A stretch of DNA of 54,003 bases from Aerococcus sp. (lineage in GTDB: Bacteria; Bacillota; Bacilli; Lactobacillales; Aerococcaceae), in contig JAUMZL010000016.1 in the NCBI GenBank assembly GCA_030528155.1, positions 1-54,003 of the forward strand, in the 5' to 3' direction. Within the stretch, counting starts at the first letter, position 1; every line of letters starts with the position of its first letter. Both the position numbers and the translations under genes were made by a program. The notes beneath the pieces were generated by a model, which saw only the letters and a list, made by a program, of their open reading frames with translations, was not told where the DNA came from and ran no database searches. Shown piece after piece: positions 8,841 to 47,692 of this stretch.

Positions 8841-8866
8841 GGGGGCTGCTTGGCCCCCTTTTGTTT
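8841..8866 (+). terminator. Intra-operon terminator/attenuator between EIIA and agaS
   Basis: GGGGGC and GCCCCC (8841-8846 with 8853-8858), 6-nt loop, followed by TTTTGTTT. No clear promoter lies between it and agaS, so partial read-through probably lowers agaS-nagA expression relative to the PTS. Confidence 0.7.
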
Positions 8867-8947
8867 CATTATGGTCAAACGATGCCACTTGTTGGCAGTA
8901 TTGATAAAGGAAATAGAGTGGTTTTCCACTCGGCTAGGAGGACAAAA

Positions 8948-10123
8948 ATGTTTACAGAATCTGATGAAAAACTCAAAGAATTGGGCGCTGACATTACCGT
9001 ACGTGAAGTACAACAACAGCCAGAATTATGGCAAGAAGCTTATGACAACTATGTCGAACAACGTGAAAAGATCACGGAATTCCTCAATGCAATCACTGCG
9101 AAACATGACCGCATTCGGGTGGTGTTTGCTGGGGCTGGAACGTCCGCTTTTGTTGGTGAAACCATTGTGCCTCATTTGGCTGAAGTTAATGATCAAAAGA
9201 AATGGGAATTCCGCGCGGTAGCAACGACGGATATTGTGGGGACACCAGAAAAATTCTTACAACATGACATTCCAACGATTTTGGTTTCCTTTGCTCGTTC
9301 AGGTAATTCACCAGAATCTGTAGCTACCGTAGAAATTGCTGAACAATTGGTAGATGACCTCTATCAAATGACGATCACCTGCGCACCAGATGGTAAATTG
9401 GCGCAAAAAGCAGAAAAAGAAAGTGATAATCTGTTACTCTTGCAACCTGCTGGCTCTAATGACAAAGGGTTTGCAATGACAGGAAGCTACAGCTGCATGG
9501 CTTTGACGGCACTGTTAGTCTTCGATACTGCCAGCGAAGCAGACAAGAAACACTATGTTGAAACGATTATTGAAGCAGGCCACAGCATTATTGAGCGAGA
9601 AGAAGACATTCAAGCAGTGGCTAACTTAGACTTTGAACGCGTGATCTATTTAGGTTCTGGTGGTTTCTTCGGCTTGTCCCGTGAAACACAATTGAAGATT
9701 TTGGAATTGACCGCTGGGAAGATTGCCACTCAATACGAAACACCAATTGGCTTCCGTCATGGGCCAAAATCCTTAGTTGATGAGAAGACGGTTGTAATGA
9801 CTTATGTCTCTAACAACGCCTACACCGACCTATACGATGCAGATTTGGTTAACGAAGTGTACCATGATGAAATTGCTGAAAAGGTGTTGGCCTTGACCGC
9901 TGAAAAACGAGACAAGATCGACGCTGACCAATTTGTGGTTGCTCACGGTACGGAATCCTTGCCAGATGTTTACCTCAGCTTCCCATATGTGATGTTTGGT
10001 CAAACCTTTGCAGTGATGACAGCCATCAAGATTGGTAATACCCCAGACACCCCATCACCAAGCGGTACGGTAAACCGTGTTGTTCAAGGGGTTATCATCC
10101 ATCCTTTAGGAGAAGAGGCTTAA
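8948..10123 (+). CDS. agaS: Galactosamine-6-phosphate deaminase/isomerase (AgaS)
   Basis: 391 residues, the normal AgaS length. Two SIS domains: AGAGTSAFVGETI and SFARSGNSPES mark the first sugar-phosphate site, and GSGGFFGLSRE the second. AgaS converts galactosamine-6-phosphate to tagatose-6-phosphate plus ammonia. The ATG at 8948 has AGGAGG 6-7 nt upstream; an in-frame TTG at 8861 falls in the U-tract of the preceding terminator and is rejected. nagA follows after 2 nt. The ammonia it releases is notable given the apparently glutaminase-less purine enzymes elsewhere in the window, but a link is speculative. Confidence 0.9.
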   Translation: MFTESDEKLKELGADITVREVQQQPELWQEAYDNYVEQREKITEFLNAITAKHDRIRVVFAGAGTSAFVGETIVPHLAEVNDQKKWEFRAVATTDIVGTPEKFLQHDIPTILVSFARSGNSPESVATVEIAEQLVDDLYQMTITCAPDGKLAQKAEKESDNLLLLQPAGSNDKGFAMTGSYSCMALTALLVFDTASEADKKHYVETIIEAGHSIIEREEDIQAVANLDFERVIYLGSGGFFGLSRETQLKILELTAGKIATQYETPIGFRHGPKSLVDEKTVVMTYVSNNAYTDLYDADLVNEVYHDEIAEKVLALTAEKRDKIDADQFVVAHGTESLPDVYLSFPYVMFGQTFAVMTAIKIGNTPDTPSPSGTVNRVVQGVIIHPLGEEA

Positions 10124-23282: not shown

Positions 23283-24260
23283 ATGGAAACCTTTGATTAT
23301 GAACAAGTCCAGTTAATTCCTGCAAAATGCGTGGTGCGCAGTCGGAGTGAATGTGATACGGCTATCACCTTGGGAGGGCGAACCTTCAAAATCCCCGTTG
23401 TGCCTGCTAACATGCAGACGGTCTTGAATGAATCGCTCGCAGAGAAATTAGCCGAAAATGGGTATTTCTACATCATGCATCGTTTTCAACCAGAAAATCG
23501 ATTACCATTTGTACGGCGCATGAATCAAAAGGGCCTCTACGCTTCCATCAGTGTGGGCGTAAAGGAGGAAGAGTATGAGTTCTTGCGGGAATTGCGTGAC
23601 TCTGGCGAAAAGGTGGATTATATCACCATCGACATCGCTCACGGGCATGCGCAGACGGTCATTGACATGATCAAATTTATTAAACGTGAATTACCAGATG
23701 CTTTCGTCATCGCAGGCAACATTGCGACACCAGAAGCTGTGCGCGAGCTAGAAAATGCCGGTGCTGATGCGACCAAAGTCGGCGTGGGACCAGGACGGGT
23801 CTGCATCACAAAAATCAAGACGGGATTTGGAACTGCCGGCTGGCAATTATCAGCCATCCGCCTTTGTGCCAAAGCTGCACGTAAACCAATCATTGCGGAC
23901 GGAGGGATTCGTACCCACGGCGATATTGCCAAGAGCATTCGCTTCGGCGCTGATATGGTGATGGTGGGTTCACTATTGGCAGCTCATAGCGAATCTCCGG
24001 GAGAAGAAGTGGTTCAAAATGGGGTACCTTACAAAGAATATTTTGGATCAGCGAGCCAATTCCAAAAAGGTGAATATAAGAATGTTGAAGGAAAGAAAAT
24101 CTTGATTGAAAGTCGCGGGAGCGTCTTTAATACCTTAGAAGAAATGCAGCAAGACCTGCAATCCAGCATCTCTTACGCTGGAGGACGCGATCTTGGAGCT
24201 TTGCGGACAGTAGACTATGTGGTTGTGCCAACCATCTACAATGGAGACCGCAGCTATTAA
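23283..24260 (+). CDS. guaC: GMP reductase
   Basis: 325 residues, matching Gram-positive GuaC. IMPDH/GMPR fold with the catalytic Cys174 in [13 protein letters not shown], a [21 protein letters not shown] phosphate-binding stretch (cited as separate motifs DGGIRTHGD and GADMVMVG) and no CBS domains, which separates it from IMP dehydrogenase. It reduces GMP to IMP with release of ammonia, feeding purine interconversion. GAGGAGCAATCAGC precedes ATG. A strong terminator follows. It is not part of the pur operon and has its own promoter. Confidence 0.94.
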
Positions 24261-32647: not shown

Positions 32648-32837
32648 GAAAGTAATAAAAATGACCAATAAAAAGGTGAGAGTGTCTTACTTATAAGAAA
32701 TACATTTCCATGTCAATTCTATTTCAAGGTATAATAAAAAAGAACATTTCTCACAAAGAAAGGAGGAAAGAAAAAAGTAGCAGCCGACAAAAGAAAGGGA
32801 TAGTTGTACAATTTTGTGTTTTTATAGGAGGATCGTT

Positions 32838-34331
32838 ATGGAAAAGAAGACGAAGAAATCGTTTAGAGTCCCGTCGTCATATACAATATTGTCTATTCTT
32901 ATTATCGGTTTGGTCATTCTCACCTGGTTCATTCCAGCGGGCGCATATGAAGTCAATGATGCTGGCCAATTTATTGCTGGTACTTACCACATAGTTGAAG
33001 CAAATCCTCAGAGCCTTTATGATATTTTAATGTCGCCGATGTATGGTTTTGTGGGCAATAAACAGACGAGTGGTGCGGTTGAAGTTGCTTTGTTCATTCT
33101 GGTGATCGGTGGTTTTTTAGGGGTGGTGAATAAGACGGGTGCCTTAAATGCTGGCATTGCTTCTGCCATCAAGAACAACAAGGGGCGCGAAAAGCGCTTG
33201 ATTTTTATTTTGATGATTTTATTTGGTTTAGGTGGAAGTACATACGGTATGGCGGAAGAAACCATCGCCTTTTTCCCGCTATTGATCCCGATCATGATTG
33301 GCATGGGATTCGATAAAATGGTCGCTCTAGCCGTCATTCTTGTGGGAACACAGGTAGGTGCACTCGCATCGACGGTCAATCCTTTTGCCACAGGGGTCGC
33401 CTCTGATGTTGCGGGGATCAGTATTGGTGATGGTTTTCTCATTCGTGTGGTCTTCCTCATTGTCCTCTTAGGCATCTCCATCGTATGGGTATATCGCTAT
33501 GCTGCCAAGGTTGAGAGTGATCCTACCCGTTCAATTGTCTATAGTCAACGAGCAGCCGATCAGGAAAATTTCCCCCTACCAGCAGAGGAAGTCATCTTTA
33601 CGAAGAAACAACGGCACGTGCTGTGGATATTCATTTTGACTTTTGTCATTATGATTGTCAGCTTGATTCCGTGGAGTGATTTCAATATTACGATCTTCGA
33701 AGAATTGAATCATTTCTTAGTCAATCTCCCTTATTTAGGGGGAGTATTTAACCATCTCGCCCCATTTGGCACATGGTATTTTTTGGAAATTACGATGCTC
33801 TTTATGGCCTCCTCAATTGTTATCGCAGTATTGTACGGGCTGAGCGAAGATGAACTGATCAGCGCCTTTATGGCAGGAGCGAGTGACATGATTGGCGTTG
33901 CTTTAATTTGCGGTTTTTCACGGGGGATTCAGGTCATTATGAATGACGGCCAAATCACGGCGACTATCCTGCATTGGGGTGAAATTGGTCTCAAAGGTCT
34001 CTCACAACAGCTTTATATTCTGTTGACCTATATTTTCTATTTGCCTATGTCTTTCCTCATGCCGGGCACGTCCAGTTTAGCAACTGCAACAATCGGGCTG
34101 TTGGGGCCACTGGGTGAGTTTGTCGGTGTCCCTGCCCATCTTGTAATTACAGCATTCCAAGCGGCGAGTGGTGCCTTGAATATCGTCACACCAACCTCAG
34201 GCGTCATTATGGGGGCACTAGCCATTGCCAAGGTGGATATTACGACGTGGTGGCGTTTCATTGGTAAATTATTCCTATTGCTCGTGATATTGAGTGCGAT
34301 CATGTTAGTAATGGCCAGTTTTGTGGTATAA
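32838..34331 (+). CDS. YfcC-family transporter (DcuC/arginine-ornithine antiporter-like)
   Basis: 497 residues with about 12-13 membrane helices. YfcC-type features: FRVPSSYTILSILII and LTWFIPAGAYEV at the N-terminus, GLGGSTYGMAEETIAFFPLL in the middle and a C-terminal PTSGVIMGALAIAKV segment. Members are annotated as C4-dicarboxylate, basic amino-acid or short-chain fatty-acid carriers; the substrate here is undetermined. I start at ATG 32838 behind AGGAGG; an in-frame codon at 32814 lacks a site. A 9-bp hairpin without a U-tract (34377-34404) lies downstream. Confidence 0.82.
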   Translation: MEKKTKKSFRVPSSYTILSILIIGLVILTWFIPAGAYEVNDAGQFIAGTYHIVEANPQSLYDILMSPMYGFVGNKQTSGAVEVALFILVIGGFLGVVNKTGALNAGIASAIKNNKGREKRLIFILMILFGLGGSTYGMAEETIAFFPLLIPIMIGMGFDKMVALAVILVGTQVGALASTVNPFATGVASDVAGISIGDGFLIRVVFLIVLLGISIVWVYRYAAKVESDPTRSIVYSQRAADQENFPLPAEEVIFTKKQRHVLWIFILTFVIMIVSLIPWSDFNITIFEELNHFLVNLPYLGGVFNHLAPFGTWYFLEITMLFMASSIVIAVLYGLSEDELISAFMAGASDMIGVALICGFSRGIQVIMNDGQITATILHWGEIGLKGLSQQLYILLTYIFYLPMSFLMPGTSSLATATIGLLGPLGEFVGVPAHLVITAFQAASGALNIVTPTSGVIMGALAIAKVDITTWWRFIGKLFLLLVILSAIMLVMASFVV

Positions 34332-34483: not shown

Positions 34484-35383
34484 ATGGTTAAGCGATTCAT
34501 CAGTGCCAATACGTCAGATTTATTAACGATGTCAGCAAAAGACCTCAAGCAAAGCATCAGAGCAAGCGAAGGTCGCGTGATTTTATCAGAAAATGTGGTG
34601 TCTACACCGGCATGGATTCCAGATATCACCAATAGCGAATTAGCACGCGCATTTGGTGCGGATTTGATTCTGCTAAATACGTTTGATATGAACCACCCAC
34701 ATATTTACGGTTTAGATGCCACAAACGATGACTTGATTCACACGCTGAAAAAATTGGTAGGGCGACCAATTGGTGTCAACTTAGAACCAGTAGCGCCCAG
34801 TGTTGAGCACATGTCAGATGCTTTAGCTATTGCAACAGGTCGTTTAGCGACAAAAGCTAATTTCAAACGAGCTGAAGCGTTAGGATTTGATTTCATCTGT
34901 TTGACGGGGAATCCAGGTGTTGGGGTGACGAACGAGGCACTCGTTGAGGCTTTGTCTGTTGCTAAAACTGTTTTTAGTGGGTTGGTTATTGCTGGAAAAA
35001 TGCATGGTGCTGGCGTCAACGAACCGGTGATGACATCAGCAGTGGCAAAGCAATTGATCGCAAATGGAGTGGATGTTCTTCTAGTGCCGGCTGTGGGGAC
35101 GGTACCAGGATTTGACCAGGATCAATTGCGTGCCTTAGTGGAACAGGCACACGAACATGATGTGTTAGTCATGTCTGCTATTGGCACCAGCCAGGAGAGT
35201 GCAGATCCCGCATTGATTCAGCACATCGCTTTGGAAAATAAGATGGCTGGTGTCGATATTCAACACATTGGCGACGCCGGGTATAGCGGATTAGCGCCGG
35301 TTGAAAATATCACAGCTATGAGCATCGCTATCCGCGGTAAACGCCATACTTATTCGCTGATGGCACGTTCCATCAATCGTTAA
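34484..35383 (+). CDS. TIM-barrel-like protein of unknown function
   Basis: 299 residues, soluble. Alternating beta/alpha pattern with FGADLILLNTFDMNHP, LGRPIGVNLEP-like (VGRPIGVNLEP), FICLTGNPGVGVT and VDIQHIGDAGYSG suggests a TIM barrel related to the PEP phosphonomutase or lactobacillar DUF7916-type proteins. I am not certain of the family. GGAAGGAG precedes ATG. A cre site just upstream and a strong terminator downstream make it a single-gene, probably CcpA-controlled unit, which points to carbon metabolism. Active-site residues cannot be named. Confidence 0.65.
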   Translation: MVKRFISANTSDLLTMSAKDLKQSIRASEGRVILSENVVSTPAWIPDITNSELARAFGADLILLNTFDMNHPHIYGLDATNDDLIHTLKKLVGRPIGVNLEPVAPSVEHMSDALAIATGRLATKANFKRAEALGFDFICLTGNPGVGVTNEALVEALSVAKTVFSGLVIAGKMHGAGVNEPVMTSAVAKQLIANGVDVLLVPAVGTVPGFDQDQLRALVEQAHEHDVLVMSAIGTSQESADPALIQHIALENKMAGVDIQHIGDAGYSGLAPVENITAMSIAIRGKRHTYSLMARSINR

Positions 35384-35727: not shown

Positions 35728-37215
35728 GTGGCGAGAGTAAAAAGGTCAAAACGACGATTAGACTGTGTAAATGAAGCAGGTGGGTTGTTCGGAATCTGGA
35801 ACCAACCAGAGGCGAGCCAAATGACATATTTCGGATTGCATGCGCTCCAACACCGTGGACAACAAGGTGTTGGAATCGTGACAAATGATGGGCAATCTTT
35901 CCATAGTTATTGCCGACAAGGATTGTTAACGCATGTGTTTTCCAATAAGGACACCTTGAAAAACTTGCCGGGAACGTGTGCGTTAGGACAGGTTAGAGCG
36001 GCGACAACCGATGATTTAGCGGATGATACTAATCTTCAACCACGTATTTTTCACTTCAACGAAGGAACATTAGCTGTTAGTCATATTGGCCATTTAACGA
36101 ACGGACGAACCTTGAGAGCAGCACTCGAAGCAAAAGGCGCCGTTTTTTCTTCTAATTCAGCCGCTGAGCTTTTTATTCATTTACTACGTCAACAACCCCA
36201 TGATGATTTTGAAACCTCTTTTACTCACAGTCTTTTGCAATTAACCGGTAGTTTTGATTTTTGTTTATTGACGGAACACGCGCTCTATGCTGCTGTCGAT
36301 CCTAACAGTTTTCGTCCACTAATTATTGGACAACTGCCAGACGGTGCTTACCTTGTAGCTAGTGAAACATGTGTCCTTCATACACTCGGTGCTCGCTTCG
36401 TTCAGGAATTATTCGCCGGCGAGTACGCAGTGATTGATGATTCAGGATGTCGCGTTGAACGTTATGCCAATGATGGTGACGTCACGATCGAACCAATGGA
36501 ATACATCTATTACGCGCGCCCTGATTCCGATATTGCGGGGATCAATGTCCATAGTGCTAGAAAGCAAATGGGACGCCAGCTTGCAAAAGAACAGCCTGCC
36601 GCTCAAGCAGACATAGTCATTGGGGTTCCTAATTCGTCCTTGTCAGCAGCGAGTGGTTATGCAGAAGCCGCACAATTGCCGTATGAGATGGGACTTATTA
36701 AGAATCAATACACCGGACGAACTTTTATTCAACCCACCCAAGCCATGCGTGAACAAGGGGTGCGCAGTAAATTGTCACCGGTGCCTAGTGTTGTTAGCGA
36801 GAAACGAATCGTGCTAGTTGATGATTCTATTGTCCGCGGAACGACGATTCGTCGCCTCATTAGCCTTTTACGCGAGGCTGGTGCTAGTGAAATTCATGTG
36901 CGCATCGCCAGCCCAGTTTTGCGGTTTCCTAATTATTTTGGTATTGACGTCAGTCACAATAGTGAATTGGTTGGTGCTGATCGTACCATTCCAGAACTCA
37001 AGGAACTCTTTGGTTGTGATAGTTTAGGTTTCCTCTCTGTTGAAGGGATGGTTAGTGCCATCCATGCGCCGTTTGATACGCCTAATCGCGGGATTGCACT
37101 CGATGCTTTCAATGGAGAGGCGTCCGCAGATATTGGCGACTATAATGAAGAATTTATGCAGGAACTGACCCCGTTACAAAAATCTATTCGGAAAGGAGCG
37201 TTTCATGATGAGTAA
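35728..37215 (+). CDS. purF: Amidophosphoribosyltransferase PurF, glutaminase site degenerate
   Basis: 495 residues. The C-terminal phosphoribosyltransferase half is intact, with PRPP loop IVLVDDSIVRGTT (361-373) and GLIKNQYTGRTFIQP. The N-terminal Ntn-glutaminase half has lost key residues: the usual NEECGVFG reads NEAGGLFG, giving Gly18 for the catalytic Cys; AHNGNL reads SHIGHL (Ile120 for the oxyanion Asn); the Gln-binding Asp is Ala146; the Tyr after the substrate-binding Arg90 is Ala91. Fe-S cysteines of the Bacillus enzyme are also missing (Glu255, Asn402). It should make phosphoribosylamine only from free ammonia. GTG start with GGAAGGAG upstream. Confidence 0.9.
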   Translation: MARVKRSKRRLDCVNEAGGLFGIWNQPEASQMTYFGLHALQHRGQQGVGIVTNDGQSFHSYCRQGLLTHVFSNKDTLKNLPGTCALGQVRAATTDDLADDTNLQPRIFHFNEGTLAVSHIGHLTNGRTLRAALEAKGAVFSSNSAAELFIHLLRQQPHDDFETSFTHSLLQLTGSFDFCLLTEHALYAAVDPNSFRPLIIGQLPDGAYLVASETCVLHTLGARFVQELFAGEYAVIDDSGCRVERYANDGDVTIEPMEYIYYARPDSDIAGINVHSARKQMGRQLAKEQPAAQADIVIGVPNSSLSAASGYAEAAQLPYEMGLIKNQYTGRTFIQPTQAMREQGVRSKLSPVPSVVSEKRIVLVDDSIVRGTTIRRLISLLREAGASEIHVRIASPVLRFPNYFGIDVSHNSELVGADRTIPELKELFGCDSLGFLSVEGMVSAIHAPFDTPNRGIALDAFNGEASADIGDYNEEFMQELTPLQKSIRKGAFHDE

Positions 37216-38245
37216 TGCCTACCAGCAAGCGGGCGTTGACATAAAAAAAGGATACGAGGCTGTTGAGCGGATGCGAAAACATGTGAGTAGAACCTTACGC
37301 CCTGAGGTATTAACCGACTTGGGGAGTTTTGGGGCACTCTTTCAACCTGATTTATCTGCTTATACGCATCCGGTATTGGTGAGCGGGACAGACGGTGTGG
37401 GAACCAAGATCTTGTTGGCGCAACAAGCCGAGCGCTTCGATACGATTGGGATAGATTGCGTCGCTATGTGTGTCAATGACGTTGTCGCTCAAGGGGCAGA
37501 GCCGTTATTTTTCCTCGATTATTTAGCAGTAGGGGAGAATCATCCCAAACAAATTGAACAGCTAGTGAAAGGGGTTGCTGATGGCTGTGTTCTTGCCCAC
37601 GCCGCGCTGATCGGTGGAGAAACTGCTGAAATGCCAGATCTCTATTCAACCGAGGAATTCGATGTAGCCGGTTTTTGCGTTGGCATTGGTGAACGTGACC
37701 GAATGTTCGATGGTACCCAAGTCCAAGCGGGAGATTGCCTCATTGGTTTGCCTAGCAGTGGCATTCACTCCAATGGTTATTCACTCGTTCGCAAGCTGTT
37801 TTTTAAAGATCACAATTATGCTTTTACAGACACGCTATCAGATGGACGCTTGTTGATCGATCATTTGTTAGAACCAACTAAAATTTATGTCGCTGATGTC
37901 TTACCACTCATTCAAAAACAATGGCTTCACGGGATCGCGCACATTACTGGCGGTGGATTCTACGAAAATATTCCGCGCATGTTCTCCACTAACTATCAAG
38001 CACTCATCACTAAAACGGCATGGGAACGCCCCTTGATCTTTGATGTGATGCAGAAATTAGGCGCGCTATCCGATCAAGAGATGTTCAATGTTTTCAATAT
38101 GGGCATCGGTATGGTGTTAGCGGTTCCGTCTGAACATGAAGCCGATGTCATAAAAGCCCTGCCAAATAGCAGGGAAATTGGATATGTCCGAGAAAGAAGC
38201 AGCACCGAGCCAGCCGTTGTCTTGAAAGGGCTGGAGGACAAATGA
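37205..38245 (+). CDS. purM: Phosphoribosylformylglycinamidine cyclo-ligase (AIR synthetase)
   Basis: 346 residues. ATP-binding family motifs: VSGTDGVGTKILLA, CVNDVVAQGAEPLFFLDY, LIGGETAEMPDLY and GLPSSGIHSNGYSLVR. It closes FGAM to AIR. It overlaps the purF end by 11 nt, with GGAG 7-10 nt upstream (two adjacent ATG codons, 37205 and 37208). No active-site loss is seen, in contrast to purF and purL. Confidence 0.95.
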   Translation: MMSNAYQQAGVDIKKGYEAVERMRKHVSRTLRPEVLTDLGSFGALFQPDLSAYTHPVLVSGTDGVGTKILLAQQAERFDTIGIDCVAMCVNDVVAQGAEPLFFLDYLAVGENHPKQIEQLVKGVADGCVLAHAALIGGETAEMPDLYSTEEFDVAGFCVGIGERDRMFDGTQVQAGDCLIGLPSSGIHSNGYSLVRKLFFKDHNYAFTDTLSDGRLLIDHLLEPTKIYVADVLPLIQKQWLHGIAHITGGGFYENIPRMFSTNYQALITKTAWERPLIFDVMQKLGALSDQEMFNVFNMGIGMVLAVPSEHEADVIKALPNSREIGYVRERSSTEPAVVLKGLEDK

Positions 38246-38880
38246 GGGGATCTGAAGAAATATCAAAAAATCCTATCGTTGTTTCAAAATACCCACGTCT
38301 GGCGCTGTTCGCCTCGGGAACTGGAACAAATGTCGCGGCCATTATTGCTGCCGTGAAATCAGGAAGATTGCAGGCCAAGATTGTTGCCATCGTTTGTGAT
38401 GAATACCAAGCGCCAGTGATTGTGCGAGCGCAACAGGCAAAATGTCCGCTTCTCGTTCTCAATCCCAAAGACACGCTGAGTCGCCAGGGGTGGGAGGAAC
38501 AATTAGTAGCCTTCTTGAAAAATCAACAGGTCGATTGGATTGCGCTGGCAGGGTTTATGCGAATTATTGGCCAGCCGCTATTAGAGGCGTTCCCCCACCA
38601 TATCGTCAATATTCATCCTGCTTTATTGCCTGCTTTTCCCGGGCGAACGGGGATTGAGGATGCTTACCGAGCAAAGGTAGCTAAGACGGGGGTCACCATT
38701 CATTATGTGGATAGTGGGATTGATACTGGTGAAATTATCGCGCAAGAATCTCTTGAGATTGATCCAAAGTGGACGCTAGCAGATTTAGCACAACGCATTC
38801 ACCAAATCGAACATCGGCTCTATCCGACAGTATTAAATCAGTTGTTTATTCAGGAAAAAATAACAGAAAGGAAGGAATAA
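38242..38880 (+). CDS. purN: Phosphoribosylglycinamide formyltransferase
   Basis: 212 residues. Catalytic triad context present: VNIHPALLPAFPG (Asn and His) and VTIHYVDSGIDTGEII (Asp); N-terminal LFASGTGTNVAAII loop binds the phosphate. It transfers formyl from 10-formyl-THF to GAR. The start overlaps the purM stop (ATGA). About 17 residues precede the usual PurN start (MRGSEEISKNPIVV); no alternative start codon lies between, so the extension appears real. Confidence 0.94.
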   Translation: MRGSEEISKNPIVVSKYPRLALFASGTGTNVAAIIAAVKSGRLQAKIVAIVCDEYQAPVIVRAQQAKCPLLVLNPKDTLSRQGWEEQLVAFLKNQQVDWIALAGFMRIIGQPLLEAFPHHIVNIHPALLPAFPGRTGIEDAYRAKVAKTGVTIHYVDSGIDTGEIIAQESLEIDPKWTLADLAQRIHQIEHRLYPTVLNQLFIQEKITERKE

Positions 38881-38882
38881 GT

Positions 38883-40481
38883 GTGCGTCAATATGCATTG
38901 CTCAGCGTTTCTGACAAGACAGATATTACGGTAATCGCGCAAGCTTTTGTGGAACAAGGGATTCAATTGCTCTCAACCGGTGGCACCTACCAAGCCCTAA
39001 CAGCGGCCGGCATCCCCGTCGAGGCCGTCAGTGATTATACCGGTTTCCCAGAGATATTAGATGGGCGAGTAAAGACCTTGCATCCAAAAATTCACGGAGG
39101 GCTATTGGCCCGTTTAGATAAAGCGAGTCACCAAAAGGTTCTAGAGAAACAGGCTATCGTCCCAATCAATTATGTTGTTGTTAATCTCTATCCTTTTCAA
39201 CAGGTACTTACAGCGCCCAGCACATCAGACGAAGAAAAAATTGAAAATATTGATATTGGCGGGCCCGCATTGCTCAGAAGCGCAGCTAAAAATTATGAAA
39301 GGGTCAGCGTCATCACAGATGTGAACGACTATCCAACGCTTATTCAGCAATTGAAAGAAAATGGTGCGACTTCGCTTGAGTTTCGCCAGTATCTAGCCAA
39401 AAAAGCTTTCCAATTAACGGCTCACTATGATGCCTTGATTAGTCACTATTTAAAAGATCGCGTCAATAGTCAAACGACCTTCACGCCGTATGACTGGGAT
39501 CATGTGACGCTTACTTATGGCGATAAACATCCTCTCCGTTACGGCGAAAATGCCCACCAAGCGGCCGCTTTTTATCGTGAGGTGACGCCTCCTGCCTTCA
39601 GTTTAGCCAATGCACGAGTGTTGCATGGAAAGACGCTTTCCTATAACAATTTGAAAGATGCGGATGCGGCCCTTGCGACTGTTCGTGAATTTGATTGTCC
39701 CGCTGCGGTAGGACTGAAGCATATGAATCCATGCGGGGTAGGCATTGGAGAGACGATTGAAGAGGCTTTTGAGCGTTGTTTTTCAGCTGATAATGTCTCA
39801 ATTTACGGAGGAATCGTGGCACTCAATCGCCCAGTGAGTTTAGCGCTGGCAGAAAAATTGGCCAAAATTTTTCTGGAAATTGTGATCGCCCCAGCGTTCG
39901 CACCAGAAGCTTATGAACGATTGGCCAAGAAGAAAAATTTACGCCTTTTGACGTTGGATTTTGAACAAAAAGCAGCTGTAGCTAAAGAGGAATATGTCAG
40001 CGTATCAGGTGGACTGTTGATGCAAACCACCGATCATTCGCCAGAATTAGTCGATCAGGCATTAACATCTTTACCAGCCTCTTGGTCAGTTGCCCAAGGA
40101 CGCACCCCCACTGCTTCAGAAATGCGCGCGATGAATTTTGCGATGAAGGTGGTCAAACACGTCAAAAGCAATGCCATTGTTGTGACGAATGAGGTCATGA
40201 CGCTCGGAGTAGGGGCAGGTCAACCTAACCGCGTGGGTGCGGCAGCGATTGCTTTAGAGATGGCGGCCAAGAAAGATCCCGCTTTAAGAGAAAACATGGT
40301 TTTGGCGAGTGATGCCTTCTTACCTATGGCGGACACAGCGGAATTAGCGGCCAAATATGGGGTTAAAGCCATTATTCAACCAGGCGGATCTATTCACGAT
40401 GATGATTCTATCGCCGTTACCCAAAAGAATAACATCGCGATGGTGATGACGGGTTATCGTCACTTCCGCCACTCGTCTTAA
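38883..40481 (+). CDS. purH: Bifunctional AICAR transformylase / IMP cyclohydrolase
   Basis: 532 residues from the GTG at 38883, 2 nt after purN with GGAAGG upstream; the longer open frame overlaps purN. IMP cyclohydrolase domain first (LLSVSDKTDI, ILDGRVKTLHPKIHGG), then the transformylase domain with the catalytic Lys-His of LKHMNPCGVG and NNLKDADAAL. It performs the last two steps to IMP. The C-terminus retains QPGGSIHDDD. No anomaly seen. Confidence 0.95.
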   Translation: MRQYALLSVSDKTDITVIAQAFVEQGIQLLSTGGTYQALTAAGIPVEAVSDYTGFPEILDGRVKTLHPKIHGGLLARLDKASHQKVLEKQAIVPINYVVVNLYPFQQVLTAPSTSDEEKIENIDIGGPALLRSAAKNYERVSVITDVNDYPTLIQQLKENGATSLEFRQYLAKKAFQLTAHYDALISHYLKDRVNSQTTFTPYDWDHVTLTYGDKHPLRYGENAHQAAAFYREVTPPAFSLANARVLHGKTLSYNNLKDADAALATVREFDCPAAVGLKHMNPCGVGIGETIEEAFERCFSADNVSIYGGIVALNRPVSLALAEKLAKIFLEIVIAPAFAPEAYERLAKKKNLRLLTLDFEQKAAVAKEEYVSVSGGLLMQTTDHSPELVDQALTSLPASWSVAQGRTPTASEMRAMNFAMKVVKHVKSNAIVVTNEVMTLGVGAGQPNRVGAAAIALEMAAKKDPALRENMVLASDAFLPMADTAELAAKYGVKAIIQPGGSIHDDDSIAVTQKNNIAMVMTGYRHFRHSS

Positions 40482-40498
40482 GAAAAGGAGATGAAGAG

Positions 40499-41749
40499 AT
40501 GGATAGTGCTTTAGTCATCGGTAGTGGGGGTCGAGAACATGCGATTGCGCGCGCCTTGATTAAAAGCCCCGAAATTGCTGTGGTTTATGTGGCTCCGGGC
40601 AATGATGGCATGGCAGAAAGTGGCATTAAGCCCACCCCTATTGCTGTAACTGATAAGAAAGGGCTGCTTCAGTTTGCCATCCAGCACGGCATTGCTGTCA
40701 CCTTTGTGGGTTCGGAAGCACCGCTCGCAGCAGGCATTGTGGATGATTTTCGTCAAGCAGGCATGGCGATTGTTGGACCGACAAAACAAGCCGCTCAATT
40801 AGAGTCTTCGAAGTACTTTGCTAAACAAATGATGAATACAGCGGGGGTGCCCACTGCTGCTTATCACTACTTCACAGCGGATGAGTGGGAAAGGGCGAAT
40901 CAATTCGTGACCGCTGATCCCACGCGTTGGGTGATTAAAGGGGATGGTTTGCTTTCCGGCAAAGGCGTCATCTTACCTACGACTGCAGCAGAGGCCAGTG
41001 CCGCCTTAACCGTATTGATGCGACATCAAAATCAACCGGTCGTCATTGAAGAGCGCTTAGTTGGGCAAGAGTTTTCCTATTTTGCTTTCGTTAATGGTTT
41101 GCATTGCTTGTCATTGGGGAGTGCTTGTGATTATAAGCGCGCTTATGACGGTGACCAAGGTCCCAACACAGGCGGCATGGGAAGTTTCTCGCCCGTTGAT
41201 TGGGTCGATGACGCTTTAAGTGAGAAGATCCGGCAAACTATTCTACAACCAATAGCCAAAGCCATGGTGGATGCGGGTACACCTTACACCGGCGTGCTGT
41301 ATTTAGGATTGATGCTGACAGAAGCTGGCGTCAAGGTGATCGAGTTCAATGTCCGCCTCGGCGACCCAGAAACACAGGTCTTATTGCCACAGTTGGAAAC
41401 TGATTTTTACACCATTGTTAAAGCGCACCTCAAGCAAGATGCACTGACCATCAAGCATAAGTCGGGGGTTAGCCTCGGCGTTGTGGTGGCCAGTGATGGC
41501 TATCCTAAGAATTATAAAAGTGGCTTACCTCTACCACTCCGCTTGCCCGATCCCACGTTGTATAGCGCGGGTATTAAGCAGGGAGAAACAGGTTGGGTGA
41601 GTGAAGGAGGGCGGTTGTTCATGCTGACAGCACAAGGCCCCACCCGTTCCAAGGCACGTACAACTGTCTATCAGCACCTCAAAACGTTATCTTTACCGGG
41701 AACATTTTATCGTAATGATATTGGGAAACATCGAGAAAGGACGAGATAA
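40499..41749 (+). CDS. purD: Phosphoribosylamine-glycine ligase (GAR synthetase)
   Basis: 416 residues, standard length. N-terminal GSGGREHAIA, ATP-grasp WVIKGDGLLSGKGVILP and the GPNTGGMGSF and EFNVRLGDPETQ motifs. It consumes the phosphoribosylamine made by PurF. Phosphoribosylamine also forms non-enzymatically from ribose-5-phosphate and ammonia, relevant given the altered PurF. AAAGGAGATG lies just before the start; 17 nt after purH. Confidence 0.95.
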   Translation: MDSALVIGSGGREHAIARALIKSPEIAVVYVAPGNDGMAESGIKPTPIAVTDKKGLLQFAIQHGIAVTFVGSEAPLAAGIVDDFRQAGMAIVGPTKQAAQLESSKYFAKQMMNTAGVPTAAYHYFTADEWERANQFVTADPTRWVIKGDGLLSGKGVILPTTAAEASAALTVLMRHQNQPVVIEERLVGQEFSYFAFVNGLHCLSLGSACDYKRAYDGDQGPNTGGMGSFSPVDWVDDALSEKIRQTILQPIAKAMVDAGTPYTGVLYLGLMLTEAGVKVIEFNVRLGDPETQVLLPQLETDFYTIVKAHLKQDALTIKHKSGVSLGVVVASDGYPKNYKSGLPLPLRLPDPTLYSAGIKQGETGWVSEGGRLFMLTAQGPTRSKARTTVYQHLKTLSLPGTFYRNDIGKHRERTR

Positions 41750-42250
41750 ATGATGACATCATCAGCAAAAGTAGCGATTGTCATGGGAAGTCGCTCGGAT
41801 TGGGAGCAAATGCGCCAAGCTGCTGACATGTTAACCAAGCTAGCAATTCCGTTCGACAAGAAGGTGGTTTCTGCTCACCGCATGCCGGATGAAATGTTTG
41901 CCTTTGCACATTCGGCACAAGATAAGGGCTACGAAGTGATTATTGCCGCAGCAGGTGGCGCGGCTCATCTGCCTGGCATGATTGCCGCTAAAACGCTACT
42001 ACCAGTGATTGGGGTGCCCATGAAATCAAAGACGCTAAATGGGATCGATTCCCTACTGTCGATCGTACAAATGCCAGCTGGCATCCCGGTGATGACTATG
42101 GCGATAGGCAGTGCTGGAGCAACCAATGCCGCTTTGGCAGCAGCACGCTTCCTCGCCGTCCACGACACGACGATTGAGCAATCTCTTAAACATTATCAAC
42201 AGCAGCTGCATGATCAAGCAAAGGAAAGTAGTGATCAACTAAATGGTTAA
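41750..42250 (+). CDS. purE: N5-carboxyaminoimidazole ribonucleotide mutase
   Basis: 166 residues, class I Pur[21 protein letters not shown] with the catalytic His, and [11 protein letters not shown] are all present. It moves the carboxylate of N5-CAIR to carbon. The start touches the purD stop (two tandem ATG codons, 41750 and 41753), with GAAAGGACGAG upstream. Its end overlaps purK by 8 nt. Confidence 0.94.
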
Positions 42251-43388
42251 GCAAATTCAGCCTGGCGCAACCATTGGCATTTTGGGCGGGGGCCAGTTGG
42301 GGAAAATGCTGGCACAATCTGCGCAAAAGATGGGCTATCGAGTGGCTATGTATGACGCCAGCCCCGATGCTTGCGGATTTGGTGTAAGTCATCGCCATGT
42401 CGTTGGTTCTTATTCGGATCATGATAAAGTGCTGGCCTTTGCCCAGTCTGTCGATGTTCTAACCTATGAGTTTGAAAATATTGATGGCGCTCTGCTTGAA
42501 CAGATTGCCGATCAAGCGTATCTGCCCCAAGGAACCAAATTATTATTAATCTCCCAACAGCGTGTTCAAGAGAAAACATGGTTGAATGAAGTGGGAGCAC
42601 AAACAGTGGCTTTCCAGCCGGTATCTTCACTAAAAGAATATCGAAAAGCCATTCAAACGATGGGTTATCCTGCCATCTTGAAGACGACACGTTTCGGCTA
42701 TGACGGCAAGGGGCAAATACGCATTGAAAATGAAGACGATGAGCGCAAAAAAAAGACCGCTATTGAATCTTTGTTGGCACATCCTTGTATTTTAGAGGAC
42801 GTTGCCGATTTCGCTTATGAGGCATCGGTGATGGTGAGTCGCGATTTGTACGGTCATGTTGAAATTTTTCCTGTCAGTCGTAATCAACATCGCCATGGCA
42901 TTCTTTATTCGAGTTTGGTGGGTGGCGACATCCCGACAAATATCCTCACTCAGATGAAGCAGATGGCTACTCATATTGCGGTATCAGGCGAACTGATTGG
43001 TGTGTGTGGTGTCGAGTTCTTCGTCATGGCTGATGGATCAGTCTATGTGAATGAAATCGCACCGCGCCCTCACAATAGTGGACACTACTCGATTGAAGCG
43101 GTCAATGTCTCACAATATGATCAACACATTCTTGCTTTGGTGGGACAGCCATTAATTCAGCCCCGTCTGTACGAACCAGCATTAATGATTAATATTCTCG
43201 GACAGCATTTGCCTTTTCTCGCAGACATCCGTGCAGCCTTTCCCACGGCGATGGTTCATCTCTATGGCAAAGACGTTGCGAAGCGCCAGCGGAAAATGGG
43301 GCATTTCACTCTCACACATCCTCGTTATGACACACTTGATACACTCTTACATCACGATGTATTGCAACAATGGGAAGCACGGTTTTAG
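42243..43388 (+). CDS. purK: N5-carboxyaminoimidazole ribonucleotide synthase
   Basis: 381 residues. ATP-grasp enzyme: [17 protein letters not shown] at the N-terminus, [14 protein letters not shown] in the ATP loop and [18 protein letters not shown] in the catalytic domain. It uses bicarbonate and ATP on AIR, in front of PurE. Translationally coupled to purE by overlap. purC follows after 19 nt. Confidence 0.94.
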
Positions 43389-43407
43389 TGACCTAGAGGA
43401 GGTAATG

Positions 43408-44091
43408 ATGAAAAAACAGTACACGGGTAAGACAAAAGACGTCTACCGCACCACTGACGGCCATCTGCTCTTGAAATTCAAGGATGATGTTACCGGAGTG
43501 GACGGTCAATTTGATCCTGGAGCGAATCAGATTGCCTTGTCCATCGCAGGGGTGGGAAAAAAAGACGTTAAGATGTCGACATACTTTTTCAACCAATTGC
43601 GTAAGCAGGGGATTCCGACCCATTTCGTCACCAGTGATCTAGAGGAAGCAACGATGACCGTTGTTCCTGCCAAAATTTTTGGTAAAGGGTTAGAAGTCAT
43701 CACGCGCTATCGAGCGGTGGGATCTTTTATCCGTCGTTATGGCGCTTATATTGACGAAGGTAGTCCGCTCGATGAGTTCGTAGAGATCACTCTAAAAGAT
43801 GATGAGCGCATGGATCCGCCAATTACCGAAGAAGCTTTGGTGATGCTGGGAATCATGACACCCGAAACGTATCAAGCGGTGGTTACTCTGAATCGCCAAA
43901 TTGCGCGTTTAATCCGCCAAGAATTAGCAGAGCATGGATTGGAACTCTATGACCTTAAACTAGAGTTTGGACGTCGCCAAGATAATGATGAGATCCTATT
44001 GATCGATGAAATCTCTGGGGGCAACATGCGTGTTTTCAAAGATGGGAAATACATTGAACCACTACATTTAGCCGACTATTTTGAAATTTAA
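43408..44091 (+). CDS. purC: SAICAR synthetase
   Basis: 227 residues, slightly short for PurC. It has TGKTKDVYRT at the N-terminus, VITRYRAVGSFIRRYG and LYDLKLEFGR. The usual DEISPDNCRLWD motif reads DEISGGNMRVF, as in one subgroup of PurC proteins, so it is not counted as a defect. The start at 43408 has GGAGG 5 nt upstream; the open frame extends back into purK. It adds aspartate to CAIR. purB, needed next, is not in the window. Confidence 0.92.
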   Translation: MKKQYTGKTKDVYRTTDGHLLLKFKDDVTGVDGQFDPGANQIALSIAGVGKKDVKMSTYFFNQLRKQGIPTHFVTSDLEEATMTVVPAKIFGKGLEVITRYRAVGSFIRRYGAYIDEGSPLDEFVEITLKDDERMDPPITEEALVMLGIMTPETYQAVVTLNRQIARLIRQELAEHGLELYDLKLEFGRRQDNDEILLIDEISGGNMRVFKDGKYIEPLHLADYFEI

Positions 44092-44152
44092 TCGTTACCG
44101 CATGCTAACCGATGATTGAACACAGTGCTTTTTATGGAATGTGAGGAAAAAT

Positions 44153-47100
44153 ATGCATCAATTTGTGATTGTACCAGCAGAAGATTCCACTTTTTATCTG
44201 AAGGAAGCGCATCAGTTTCTCCACTTGGACCGACTGACGGCTGTAAAGCAGTATGACATATTTGAATATGAAGCAGATACCTTAAATGAAGCAGCGTTGC
44301 AGGTGTTCCCTAATTATGAAGTGACGGACGATTTAGAGGCACTGGCACAACCGAATAGTTTTCGCTACCGTCAAATCCTTGGTCAATATGACGAAGTAGA
44401 AGAAATGACGGGACGTTTGGTTCACGATATTTTACAACAGACAACCACTTTTCATCATTCGCGGGTGTTGAGGCTAGAGGGATTAGACCAAGAGGAGACA
44501 GAAGCGTTCAAACGTTACTTTGTCAATGAAACAGAAATCGAGTTAGTTCCTTTCAGCGCTTTGGACTATGACATGGGGCAGTCCGATGCGAAAGATTTGC
44601 AGCAGGTGCAGGGCTTCATCACCTTCACTGACGAGCAATTAGCAGACTTAATCAAAGATTATTCGATGGATATGGCGGATATCCGCGTCGTTCAAGCGTA
44701 TTTCCAAGCTGAAGGTGTCAACCCAACCGTATTTCAATTGAAAGTCATCGATACTTATTGGTCTGATCACTGCCGCCACACAACGTTCTTGACAGAATTG
44801 ACAGAAATCACCGTAGAAGACGGGAAGTACCGTGAAGCCATTGAACAGGCCATTGCGGAATATAATGACGTACGAGCACATGTCTACACAGATCGCCATG
44901 TCAAGCCTGTGTCATTGATGGATATGGGCACCATTAATGCCAAAGAAGCCAAACGACTGGGCGTATTAACGAACGTTGATGAATCAGACGAAGTTAATGC
45001 GTGCTGTATCAAGATTAAAGTGGATGTTGATGGAGAAGAGGAAGACTTCCTACTCTATTTCAAGAATGAAACCCACAATCACCCCACGGAAATTGAACCG
45101 TTCGGCGGGGCAGCTACCTGCATTGGTGGTGGGATCCGTGACCCTCTCTCTGGCCGGTCTTATGTTCATCAAGCGTTGCGAATGGTTGGGGCAGGGAATC
45201 CAACCAAAGCATACGAAGAGACCCGCCAAGACAAACTATCGCAGCGCGTATTGGCGCAGCGAGCGGTACAAGGCTACTCCGATTATGGCAATCAAATTGG
45301 CCAAACAGCTGGCTACGTCAAGGAATTTTACCACGACGGCTTTGAAGCTAAACGCATGGAATTAGGCGCGTTGGTTGCTGCTGCACCAGCTGATGCTGTT
45401 GTCCGTCAAATCCCAGAACCAACAGATGTCGTGCTGTTGTTAGGAGGCCCAACTGGACGTGATGGGCTAGGCGCGGCAGTGGGCTCGTCAATGGTTCAAA
45501 CGGAACAATCGAAAGAACTGCAAGGAGCAGAAGTACAAAAAGGGAATCCTGGCATTGAAAGAAAAATTATTCGTCTATTCCGCCAACCAGAAGCCACACG
45601 GTTAATCAAGAAATGTAATGATTTTGGTGCTGGTGGGGTATCGGTAGCCATTGGGGAATTAGCGCCTGGTCTCAGTATTGACCTCGATCAAGTCCCATTG
45701 AAATATGCAGGGATGGATCCAAGTGAAATTGCTCTCTCAGAATCACAAGAACGAATGGCCATCGTTGTAGCAAAAAGTGATGTTGAAACATTTGTTTCTT
45801 TAGCAGAAGCGGAAGACTTAATGGCCACACCAGTAGCTACGGTGACTGATTCGCCTTATATGGTGATGAACTACAAGGGCGAGGAAGTGCTTCGTCTCAG
45901 ACGCGATTTCTTAGATTCGAATGGGGGAAAGAAGACCGCCCAAGCACATATCATCAGTAACGATTTTGAAGCAGAGCGTCGGGACGATCGCCCGATCAAG
46001 GAGCAATTGGGTGATGTGAAATACGCGAGTCAGAAAGCAATTGGCCAAAACTTTGACTTCACTATCGGTAAAGGAACTGTCTTAGCGCCGTTTGGTGGTA
46101 AGAATCAGATAACGGAACAAGAAGGCATGGTAGCTAAAATTCCAGTGCTCGGTCATGAAACAAAGAGTGTCTCTGTTATGTCGGGGGCTTTCTATCCAGA
46201 TATTGCGACTCAATCGCCATTTCATGGAGCATACTATGCCGTCTTGGCTTCTATTGCTAAAACAGTTGGGCTAGGCGTACCTTATCCGGACGTTCGATTA
46301 AGCTTCCAAGAATTTTTTGAAAGCCTCACCTCCAAAGAAAAATGGGGCAAACCAACTGGGGCCTTACTCGGTGCTTTCCATGCTTTGAAACAGCTAGATT
46401 TGGCTTCGATTGGTGGCAAGGATAGTATGAGTGGGACTTTTGAGGATTTAGTCGTGCCACCGTCTCTGATTAGTTTTTCGGTTGGGAAGACGACCATTGA
46501 TCGCGTACAATCGCGAGAATTCAAGGCGACGGACTCTCAAATTGTTCTATTAAAACCTGATCTAACCGCTGAGGATCTCTACCTGACGGATCAACTGAAA
46601 GAGATGTTTGAAACGGTGGATGCTTTACTTAAAGATAACCAGGTTCGGGCGATTGGATTGACGAACGACAAGACCATTGAGCAGAATGTTGTGGAAATGG
46701 CATTAGGTAATGGTATCGGAGCAAGCATTGATCAGCACTATCTCCATCAAAAATACCCAGTGGCTTACCTGATTGAAACTCGAAAAGGACTCGATGTGCC
46801 AATGGGCGAGGTCATCGGTGAAACAACCGCTACGAATGAAGTCGTTCTTGATCAAACGTATGCTTTGCCTGAACTGCTAGCGACCTACGCAAAGCCACTA
46901 GCAGATGTTTTCACAGACATTCCATTTGAAGAAAAAATGCCGGTAGCCCAACCATTGGAAGTGCCAACAATCACTAGTGATTGCCGTGTTCTAATCGTGG
47001 TGACTAACGGTGTGAATGGCGAATATGATCTTAAGGAGACCTTCCGTCAGTATACCAAACAGGTCGATACCTTCATTATCCAAGAAGAGCTTGACTACAA

Positions 47101-47692
47101 AGGATCGATCGCCCGTTTGAAAGAAAAGATGATGGCCTATGATATTCTTGCTTTTGCGGATGGTTCGATCTTCTCCAATCGTTTATTCTATGGCGAAGGA
47201 ATGTCATTAATCCTGAACGATCTAAAAGATGCCTTGACGATCTTTATGGAAAAACACTATGTTCTTGCTGTGGGGGCTGCTATGGCTGGCTTTGTTAACA
47301 ACGGTTGGTTAGAATTTGGCAAGGCGCAGCCTGGCACGCATCTTCACTATCAGAACAACCCCTATGATAAGTACATCGCAACGACTGTTCCGGTTAATGT
47401 TGTCAAAGATAGTCCGTTTGCGCCAAAAGGCAGTTATACTACGGCTTTATCTGGGTATACCCTCACTTTGACGAGTGATGACACAGTAGATCTCACTGAT
47501 CAAATTCTCTCACGTTATGCCACTTTTATTGCTGGTGTTGATGGTATCGATGCGATGGTGGATCCAAGTGGACATCTGCTCGGAATCAATTCAAATACGG
47601 AGCGCTTCTTTGCTGGGGGAGTGAAGAATGTATCGGTACATGAATCGCCACTGATTGCCAACTTAGTTAAGGTAGCTAAACAAACGAAATAA
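44153..47692 (+). CDS. purL: FGAM synthase, single-chain PurL, with degenerate glutaminase domain
   Basis: 1179 residues: PurS-like N-terminus (about 1-145), synthetase core (about 150-940; SDHCRHTTF at 204-212, FKNETHNHPTEIEP, GGKDSMSG) and a C-terminal glutaminase-like domain (942-1179). The core looks intact. The last domain keeps the VLIVVTNGVNGEYD start, but the nucleophile elbow GICNGFQAL reads AVGAAMAGF, with Gly1041 at the Cys position. The downstream GHSERxE catalytic His/Glu motif reads NSNTERFF, and the SHGEG loop is absent. No purQ or purS gene is seen. It should run on ammonia, not glutamine. Start ATG behind GAGGA; GTG at 44141 is less likely. Confidence 0.92.
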   Translation: MHQFVIVPAEDSTFYLKEAHQFLHLDRLTAVKQYDIFEYEADTLNEAALQVFPNYEVTDDLEALAQPNSFRYRQILGQYDEVEEMTGRLVHDILQQTTTFHHSRVLRLEGLDQEETEAFKRYFVNETEIELVPFSALDYDMGQSDAKDLQQVQGFITFTDEQLADLIKDYSMDMADIRVVQAYFQAEGVNPTVFQLKVIDTYWSDHCRHTTFLTELTEITVEDGKYREAIEQAIAEYNDVRAHVYTDRHVKPVSLMDMGTINAKEAKRLGVLTNVDESDEVNACCIKIKVDVDGEEEDFLLYFKNETHNHPTEIEPFGGAATCIGGGIRDPLSGRSYVHQALRMVGAGNPTKAYEETRQDKLSQRVLAQRAVQGYSDYGNQIGQTAGYVKEFYHDGFEAKRMELGALVAAAPADAVVRQIPEPTDVVLLLGGPTGRDGLGAAVGSSMVQTEQSKELQGAEVQKGNPGIERKIIRLFRQPEATRLIKKCNDFGAGGVSVAIGELAPGLSIDLDQVPLKYAGMDPSEIALSESQERMAIVVAKSDVETFVSLAEAEDLMATPVATVTDSPYMVMNYKGEEVLRLRRDFLDSNGGKKTAQAHIISNDFEAERRDDRPIKEQLGDVKYASQKAIGQNFDFTIGKGTVLAPFGGKNQITEQEGMVAKIPVLGHETKSVSVMSGAFYPDIATQSPFHGAYYAVLASIAKTVGLGVPYPDVRLSFQEFFESLTSKEKWGKPTGALLGAFHALKQLDLASIGGKDSMSGTFEDLVVPPSLISFSVGKTTIDRVQSREFKATDSQIVLLKPDLTAEDLYLTDQLKEMFETVDALLKDNQVRAIGLTNDKTIEQNVVEMALGNGIGASIDQHYLHQKYPVAYLIETRKGLDVPMGEVIGETTATNEVVLDQTYALPELLATYAKPLADVFTDIPFEEKMPVAQPLEVPTITSDCRVLIVVTNGVNGEYDLKETFRQYTKQVDTFIIQEELDYKGSIARLKEKMMAYDILAFADGSIFSNRLFYGEGMSLILNDLKDALTIFMEKHYVLAVGAAMAGFVNNGWLEFGKAQPGTHLHYQNNPYDKYIATTVPVNVVKDSPFAPKGSYTTALSGYTLTLTSDDTVDLTDQILSRYATFIAGVDGIDAMVDPSGHLLGINSNTERFFAGGVKNVSVHESPLIANLVKVAKQTK

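Follow-up and report, generated by a model that had tools for sequence, protein, structure and literature searches.

Loss of the glutaminase active sites of both PurF and PurL in a purine operon of Aerococcus, and its probable supply by free ammonia

PurF and PurL, which act on the way to inosine monophosphate (IMP), are textbook glutamine amidotransferases. Escherichia coli PurF in which the catalytic Cys is replaced with Ala or Ser can no longer use glutamine but remains active with ammonia (Mei and Zalkin 1989, cited in PMC3261824). A role in making purines in vivo has been ascribed to the ammonia-dependent formation of phosphoribosylamine, and yeast cells with a non-condensing Ade4 grow more slowly as ammonium falls (both from PMC12017579). 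A related situation is that of human CPS1, which keeps an amidotransferase-like domain whose catalytic Cys is replaced with Ser and receives its ammonia from outside (PMC4655335). Here we analyze a purine operon in a 54,003-nucleotide stretch of DNA from Aerococcus sp. (contig JAUMZL010000016.1 of GCA_030528155.1; hereafter the window), which is contig C8 of the assembly that we denote G000 (1,673,172 bases, 38 contigs, 95.5% complete). An earlier note, made from the sequence of the window alone, placed the operon at positions 35728-47692, where we also find it, and claimed that its purF and purL genes both lack glutaminase sites. This claim was confirmed by reading the residues, which are replaced, and by checking that the motifs for phosphoribosyl pyrophosphate (PRPP) binding and FGAM synthesis are present.

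In the window PurF, the catalytic Cys of the NEEC-G motif is replaced with Gly18 (NEAGG), the oxyanion Asn with Ile (HIGH where HNGN is expected) and the glutamine-binding Asp with Ala (NSAAE); the Arg of GQVRAAT is retained. The role of the PurF Cys is described in PMC3261824; those of the other glutamine-site residues of PurF and PurL are the ones known for the enzyme families. The PRPP-binding loop VLVDDSIVRGTT of the phosphoribosyltransferase (PRTase) half is present. The protein scores 397.9 bits with TIGR01134, above the curated cut-off of 350, its PF13537 glutaminase domain is still detected with 48.3 bits, and its alignment with the PurF of Bacillus subtilis (1gph; E 8.6e-139) covers residues 19-469. 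It is thus a PurF homologue, but judging from the Gly, Ile and Ala at its Cys, Asn and Asp sites it is no glutamine amidotransferase. Cys13 was considered as an alternative nucleophile and rejected, as it is missing from the closest relative by PurF (genome G011, 68%).

In the window PurL, the position of the Cys, found in GICNGFQ in intact enzymes, is occupied by Gly in the stretch AVGAAMAG, which starts at residue 1043; TTALSGYTL (from residue 1100) stands in place of the SHGEG motif, and the Cys-His-Glu triad of class I glutaminases was not found. The synthase motifs YWSDHCRH, at residue 206, and KNETHNHP, at residue 308, are present. The score with TIGR01857 is 1015.5 bits, below the curated cut-off of 1057.05, and the best match spans residues 28-1008 of 1183, ending inside the glutaminase domain, which is still detected by Pfam GATase_5 (PF13507; 30.8 bits).

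Both enzymes probably run on free ammonia instead of glutamine. We draw this from the loss of the glutaminase residues and the retention of the catalytic motifs, together with the behavior of engineered PurF, the example of CPS1 and the two-site mechanism. The operon would make IMP with a PurF and a PurL unable to draw nitrogen from glutamine. PurF would join free ammonia and PRPP on its PRTase half, and PurL would use free ammonia with formylglycinamide ribonucleotide and ATP on its synthase half, as expected from the two-site mechanism for a fused PurL devoid of glutaminase activity. Intracellular ammonia would have to be sufficiently high. The vestigial glutaminase domains would stay as structural or regulatory parts, and the later GuaA step toward guanosine monophosphate (GMP) would remain glutamine-fed. 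The genes of the operon, all on the forward (+) strand, are as follows.

35728..37215, +, purF, amidophosphoribosyltransferase: Gly18 for the nucleophile, other residues for the oxyanion Asn and the glutamine-binding Asp, PRPP loop present in the PRTase half.
37205..38245, +, purM, aminoimidazole ribonucleotide (AIR) synthetase.
38242..38880, +, purN, glycinamide ribonucleotide (GAR) transformylase.
38883..40481, +, purH, aminoimidazole carboxamide ribonucleotide (AICAR) transformylase / IMP cyclohydrolase: named by reading and operon conservation.
40499..41749, +, purD, GAR synthetase.
41750..42250, +, purE, N5-carboxyaminoimidazole ribonucleotide (N5-CAIR) mutase.
42243..43388, +, purK, N5-CAIR synthetase.
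43405..44091, +, purC, succinylaminoimidazole carboxamide ribonucleotide (SAICAR) synthetase, of the type accompanying Cys-less PurL: named by reading and operon conservation.
44141..47692, +, purL, fused FGAM synthase (TIGR01857-like): synthase motifs kept, C-terminal glutaminase domain at about residues 949-1183 without Cys and without SHGEG.

The starts of purH (the GTG of VRQYALLSVSDK; the longest open reading frame starts at 38769) and of purC (MMKKQY; the longest starts at 43231) were chosen by us. With gathering scores as thresholds, Rfam detected only a tRNA in the window, and no known regulatory RNA at the operon. A gene for a DUF7916 protein (PF25509, 433.5 bits) lies just upstream of purF, at 34484-35383, and is preceded by a gene at 32814-34331 whose sole NCBIfam match, to the YfcC antiporter family, is below the cut-off.

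We surveyed 76 Aerococcaceae genomes; PurL was matched in 53 of these, and PurQ scored above the cut-off in 30. A fused PurL devoid of the Cys occurs in 20 of them, and in all 20 the PurF of the same operon is Cys-less as well; the five remaining fused PurLs of the family (G001, G002, G003, G073 and G074) keep both GICNGFQ and SHGEG. These double-loss operons have two layouts. Layout A, with the gene order purF-M-N-H-D-E-K-C-L and a PurF of 495-523 residues, is found in 8 genomes (G000, G011, G058, G034, G035, G057, G056 and G028). Layout B, with the order purC-L-E-F-M-N-H-D, is found in 12 (G033, G023, G018, G017, G036, G015, G038, G022, G010, G024, G025 and G026). Its PurF, of 415-430 residues, starts at or near Met-Ser-Gly, and parts of its glutaminase domain are missing, among them a large portion of the oxyanion-Asn region. 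There is no extra gene inside the operons listed for either layout, and the layout-B stretches gave no match to PurK.

PurF and PurL are under strong purifying selection in close pairs. The ratio of nonsynonymous to synonymous substitution rates (dN/dS) was 0.02-0.16 in those with a readable dS of at least 0.05, and the range was the same for the catalytic and the vestigial glutaminase parts. Several pairs were near saturation and carry little information, and the pair of the window itself was saturated in three of the four parts and near saturation in the fourth. In close relatives of both layouts, the glutaminase domain is thus kept under constraint without its nucleophile, as a CPS1-like relic would be. 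The agreement of 20 genomes and the selection in close pairs argue that the double loss is no accident of sequencing or assembly, an explanation that we rejected.

These data also bear on the possibility that the operon no longer makes purines and is either decaying or devoted to another product. The missing PurK match in layout B would fit it, as would genome G017, in which a single contig holds a layout-B double-loss operon and an intact native operon, at about 1.43 and 2.18 Mb; since the intact operon is also present, the layout-B set of this genome could be dispensable or specialised. However, the nine genes are complete in 8/8 layout-A operons, the eight genes besides purK are found in 12/12 layout-B operons (some truncated where the stretch ends), dN/dS is low in close pairs, and the 95.5% complete assembly of the window yielded no additional PurF, PurL or PurQ. 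Loss of purine synthesis is therefore highly improbable. As to intact duplicates, which according to the earlier note would speak against ammonia-fed purine synthesis, one relative (G017) does have them; for the genome of the window they were rejected, as none was found in its assembly. A PurF with an intact site, almost identical to that of G017, is also present in genome G034 (9% contamination), and in G009 (4% contamination) an additional full-length match to PurF lies on a different contig; either may be a contaminant.

The ammonia-fed reading of the earlier note fits this evidence, but its view of two independent losses with one cause proved too simple. By its identities, the window operon is a chimera of native purF-M-N-H-D-E-K genes and a foreign purC-purL pair. 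In the eight layout-A genomes, PurL is nearer to layout B, and PurF, PurM, PurN, PurH and PurE are nearer to native G049; PurC has 51-59% identity to layout B (G018) and 29-33% to native PurC (G072). Midpoint-rooted trees of the PurL synthase part group the Cys-less PurLs of layouts A and B with those of G234 and G595, from other families (supports 0.999; 100). The PRTase tree of PurF also places layout B with G234 and G595 (100/98), but layout A falls within a group of 16 rows (99/93) together with native PurFs of Aerococcaceae that are intact, which indicates that the PurF site was lost separately in the two layouts. The purC-purL pair thus most likely arrived already devoid of its glutaminase site, and the PurF site was lost separately. 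The native Aerococcaceae operon would, in either order, have lost the PurF glutaminase site and had its purC-S-Q-L block replaced by the foreign pair.

Two further genomes, G009 and G048, belong near layout A. When PurF (its PRTase part and tail) was combined with PurM, PurN and PurH in one tree, G048 stood beside seven layout-A genomes and G009 (100/99); G028 is not firmly placed, and a single clade of all ten was not rejected (approximately unbiased test, p 0.40). The PurC of G009 is of the foreign type (56% identity to G000, 53% to G018 and 29% to native PurC). The retention of this PurC beside a PurQ-PurL pair suggests that G009 later reverted to PurQ-PurL.

Outside the family, we examined PurF at 78 loci (L034-L111), which come from the top 80 of the 352 matches obtained with the window PurF. 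By automatic alignment, the Cys is kept in 77 of them, the exception being L092; the alignment scores L045 as Cys-positive, but by eye it is Cys-less, which makes 76 of 78. L092 comes from a Clostridiales metagenome-assembled genome, and the PurL on the same contig is also Cys-less. This PurL is placed elsewhere in the PurL tree than the main Cys-less group, and L092 is a further double loss. That tree requires four more changes in all: L335; L345; L344; and L092 with G440, G481 and G516.

An order-wide search at E 1e-150 was passed by 91 of 395 genomes, those outside the family being G234 (family f6) and 66 genomes that all belong to a single genus (f4 g24). PurF and PurL are both intact in the 11 genomes of that genus that were examined. 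G234, which belongs to a different family of the Lactobacillales, is also a double loss: its PurL, truncated by the contig end, is Cys-less, and its PurF is layout-B-like. A phylum-wide search at E 1e-120 was passed by 117 of 398 genomes, including that of the window, and PurL was read in 105 of the other 116. Its Cys is kept in 98 and absent in G595, G516, G481, G440, G405, G501 and G616. G595, of another family, is a double loss with Ser for the PurF Cys; in G440, G481 and G405 PurF keeps its Cys and has changes in other glutamine-site residues, and in G516 the N terminus of PurF is unreadable. All 17 genomes of this sample in which the PurL Cys is intact and the retrieved stretch contains a PurF also retain the PurF Cys. 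In G455 and G656, PurL has its Cys and His, with Val and Gly in place of the Glu; both were scored Cys-positive where counted. The Cys-less fused PurL frame G616:C30:4677-7949 contains an in-frame TAG in a genome with no PurF match at E 1e-30, and G616 was left out of the counts. L319 (G424) is a fused PurL-like open frame of 1641 residues, longer than the others read, that keeps the Cys and SHGEG.

Other uses of glutamine are preserved. The window genome keeps the glutamine synthetase gene glnA, a GuaA with its Cys and FHPE motif, and GlmS and AsnB with Cys. In the 20 double-loss genomes, glnA is found in 17 and full-length GuaA frames (518-558 residues) in all, the residues having been read in that of the window only. 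The change thus affects the two glutamine steps toward IMP rather than the use of glutamine in general. The shortage of glutamine envisaged in the earlier note was rejected for the same reason.

Some related observations are recorded here. G025, G026 and G033 (layout B, 95-97% complete) gave no glutamine synthetase match, and neither did G004, G052, G063 and G070, of which only G052 is more than 90% complete; it has no PurF-like match. A PF00117 search of the window genome returned GuaA, a 262-residue frame (residues unread) and a weak 199-residue frame, with no clear CarA or PyrG, which may be an assembly gap. GMP synthase C-terminal domains in short frames of 254-336 residues (G030:C1:1022410, G031:C3:4880, G031 C18:259576 and G032:C3:237510) suggest a GuaA without a fused glutaminase domain in G030, G031 and G032, which are not double-loss genomes.

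Several points weigh against ammonia-fed PurF and PurL. When its concentration is low, ammonia should be a poor substrate. The Amt ammonium transporter is absent from 19 of the 20 double-loss genomes, including that of the window, and present in G035 only; its absence is no mark of the double loss, however, since 56 of the 76 family genomes have no Amt. Ten flanking proteins, scanned at the loci of eight relatives, include no shared gene and no ammonia maker by name, one being a protein of the amidohydrolase family. Nor was a link seen to AgaS or GuaC, which the earlier note named as releasing ammonia. The SIS-domain gene that it called AgaS (8861-10123) and the IMPDH/GMP reductase-domain gene that it called GuaC (23283-24260) are both situated in other parts of the window. 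Either NH3 entering by diffusion or the breakdown of amino acids could be a sufficient source. Single losses also occur. G009 and G048 have a Cys-less PurF, yet a small PurL with a PurQ that keeps its Cys; L045 has a PurF that is Cys-less by eye and an intact PurL; G501 has lost the PurL Cys with its PurF site intact; and L335, L270 and L271 have Cys-less PurLs with a PurF that keeps its Cys and is altered at other glutamine-site residues. The survey of relatives called for in the earlier note thus yielded co-occurring loss in 20/20 of the family genomes with a Cys-less fused PurL, along with the single losses of G009, G048, G501 and L045, which match in part what that note said would refute its reading.

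To count the combinations, we used 83 rows with both genes, having dropped L260 (G516), with its unreadable PurF N terminus, and left uncounted 70 PurF rows without a paired PurL or PurQ. Both Cys are missing in 23 rows, that of PurF only in 2, that of PurL only in 4, and neither in 54, among them the additional operon copies of G017 and G034 whose sites are intact; with L045 recoded by eye, the counts are 23, 3, 4 and 53. Fisher tests gave very small p-values, but the rows are related. An independent-pairs test, also to be set against ammonia-fed PurF and PurL, was not significant in any coding, with 4 pairs on supported branches and 7 on all branches, of which fewer are informative than the test requires to reach significance. 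For these reasons we claim repeated co-occurrence of the PurF and PurL losses, and not a proven functional link between them.

The losses may be unlinked, the glutaminase domains having decayed neutrally in ammonia-rich habitats and the co-occurrence reflecting shared descent of the operon. The grouping of 22 Cys-less PurLs, from Aerococcaceae, G234 and G595, implies that most of the co-occurrence is inherited, and the single losses and the pairs test point the same way. In contrast, the layout-A PurF is of native descent, its site having been lost independently of the loss in layout B, and L092 adds another double loss. We regard unlinked losses as quite possible, though short of probable. 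As they would leave ammonia use in place and deny only a shared selective cause, their likelihood overlaps with that of ammonia-fed PurF and PurL.

Alternatively, a separate glutaminase might split glutamine in trans and supply both enzymes with the ammonia, in the way that PurQ serves small PurL. Split PurQ/PurL enzymes are common in the family, as the PurQ count above shows, and in G009 and G048 a Cys-less PurF does occur together with a PurQ whose Cys is retained. However, the window genome has no PurQ above the cut-off, its single weak match (24.7 bits) being the same 199-residue frame as in the PF00117 search, which returned only the three frames named above. The operons listed for layouts A and B hold no additional gene that could play this part, and we know of no trans-acting subunit for class II amidotransferases such as PurF. 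A glutaminase in trans is thus improbable.

If PurF and PurL are ammonia-fed as we propose, a core pathway can switch its nitrogen donor at both steps, by different routes in several lineages, and purine synthesis in these bacteria is predicted to require ammonia. The enzymes would be natural ammonia-only forms for studying the entry of ammonia and the retention of a dead domain. Family models still label such genes as glutamine amidotransferases, which is a warning for annotation. More speculatively, and in our view rather unlikely, there may be a transferable ammonia-fed purine pathway in Bacillota, with the glutaminase-less purC-purL pair or the whole operon moving between lineages. In some genomes, such as G017, it might serve as an alternative set for ammonia-rich conditions beside a glutamine-fed operon, in the manner of AsnA and AsnB.

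The earlier note knew of no described purine operon of this kind, and none is described either by the papers listed in our literature search, whose scope excluded most subscription papers and all preprints. The closest systems each share part of its features. CPS1 is one enzyme of another pathway, whereas here two enzymes with unrelated classes of glutaminase are affected in one pathway and would use ammonia. The PurFs (GPATases) of E. coli and B. subtilis belong to the same enzyme family and have the same PRTase half, but in the window PurF the nucleophile, the oxyanion Asn and the glutamine-binding Asp are all replaced; the engineered Cys variants of the E. coli enzyme behave as proposed for the window PurF (cited in PMC3261824). 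Methanocorpusculum labreanum Mlab_0150 and M. marisnigri Memar_1841 provide examples of a PurF-like protein with Ser for the Cys and of a PurQ-like protein without the triad; in contrast to the operon described here, they involve additional copies in their genomes and not a whole operon, and the authors doubt that Mlab_0150 is a PurF (PMC3261824). The Streptococcus-like and clostridial fused PurLs (TIGR01857) have the same architecture as the window PurL, with 36-48% identity among the matches listed outside the Cys-less group, but they usually have the Cys (98 of the 105 phylum genomes read), and the window PurL has neither Cys nor SHGEG. Finally, AsnA and AsnB are ammonia-fed and glutamine-fed enzymes for one step, sometimes found in one genome. 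They are mutually unrelated, whereas the ammonia-type enzymes of this operon would descend from glutamine-type ones.

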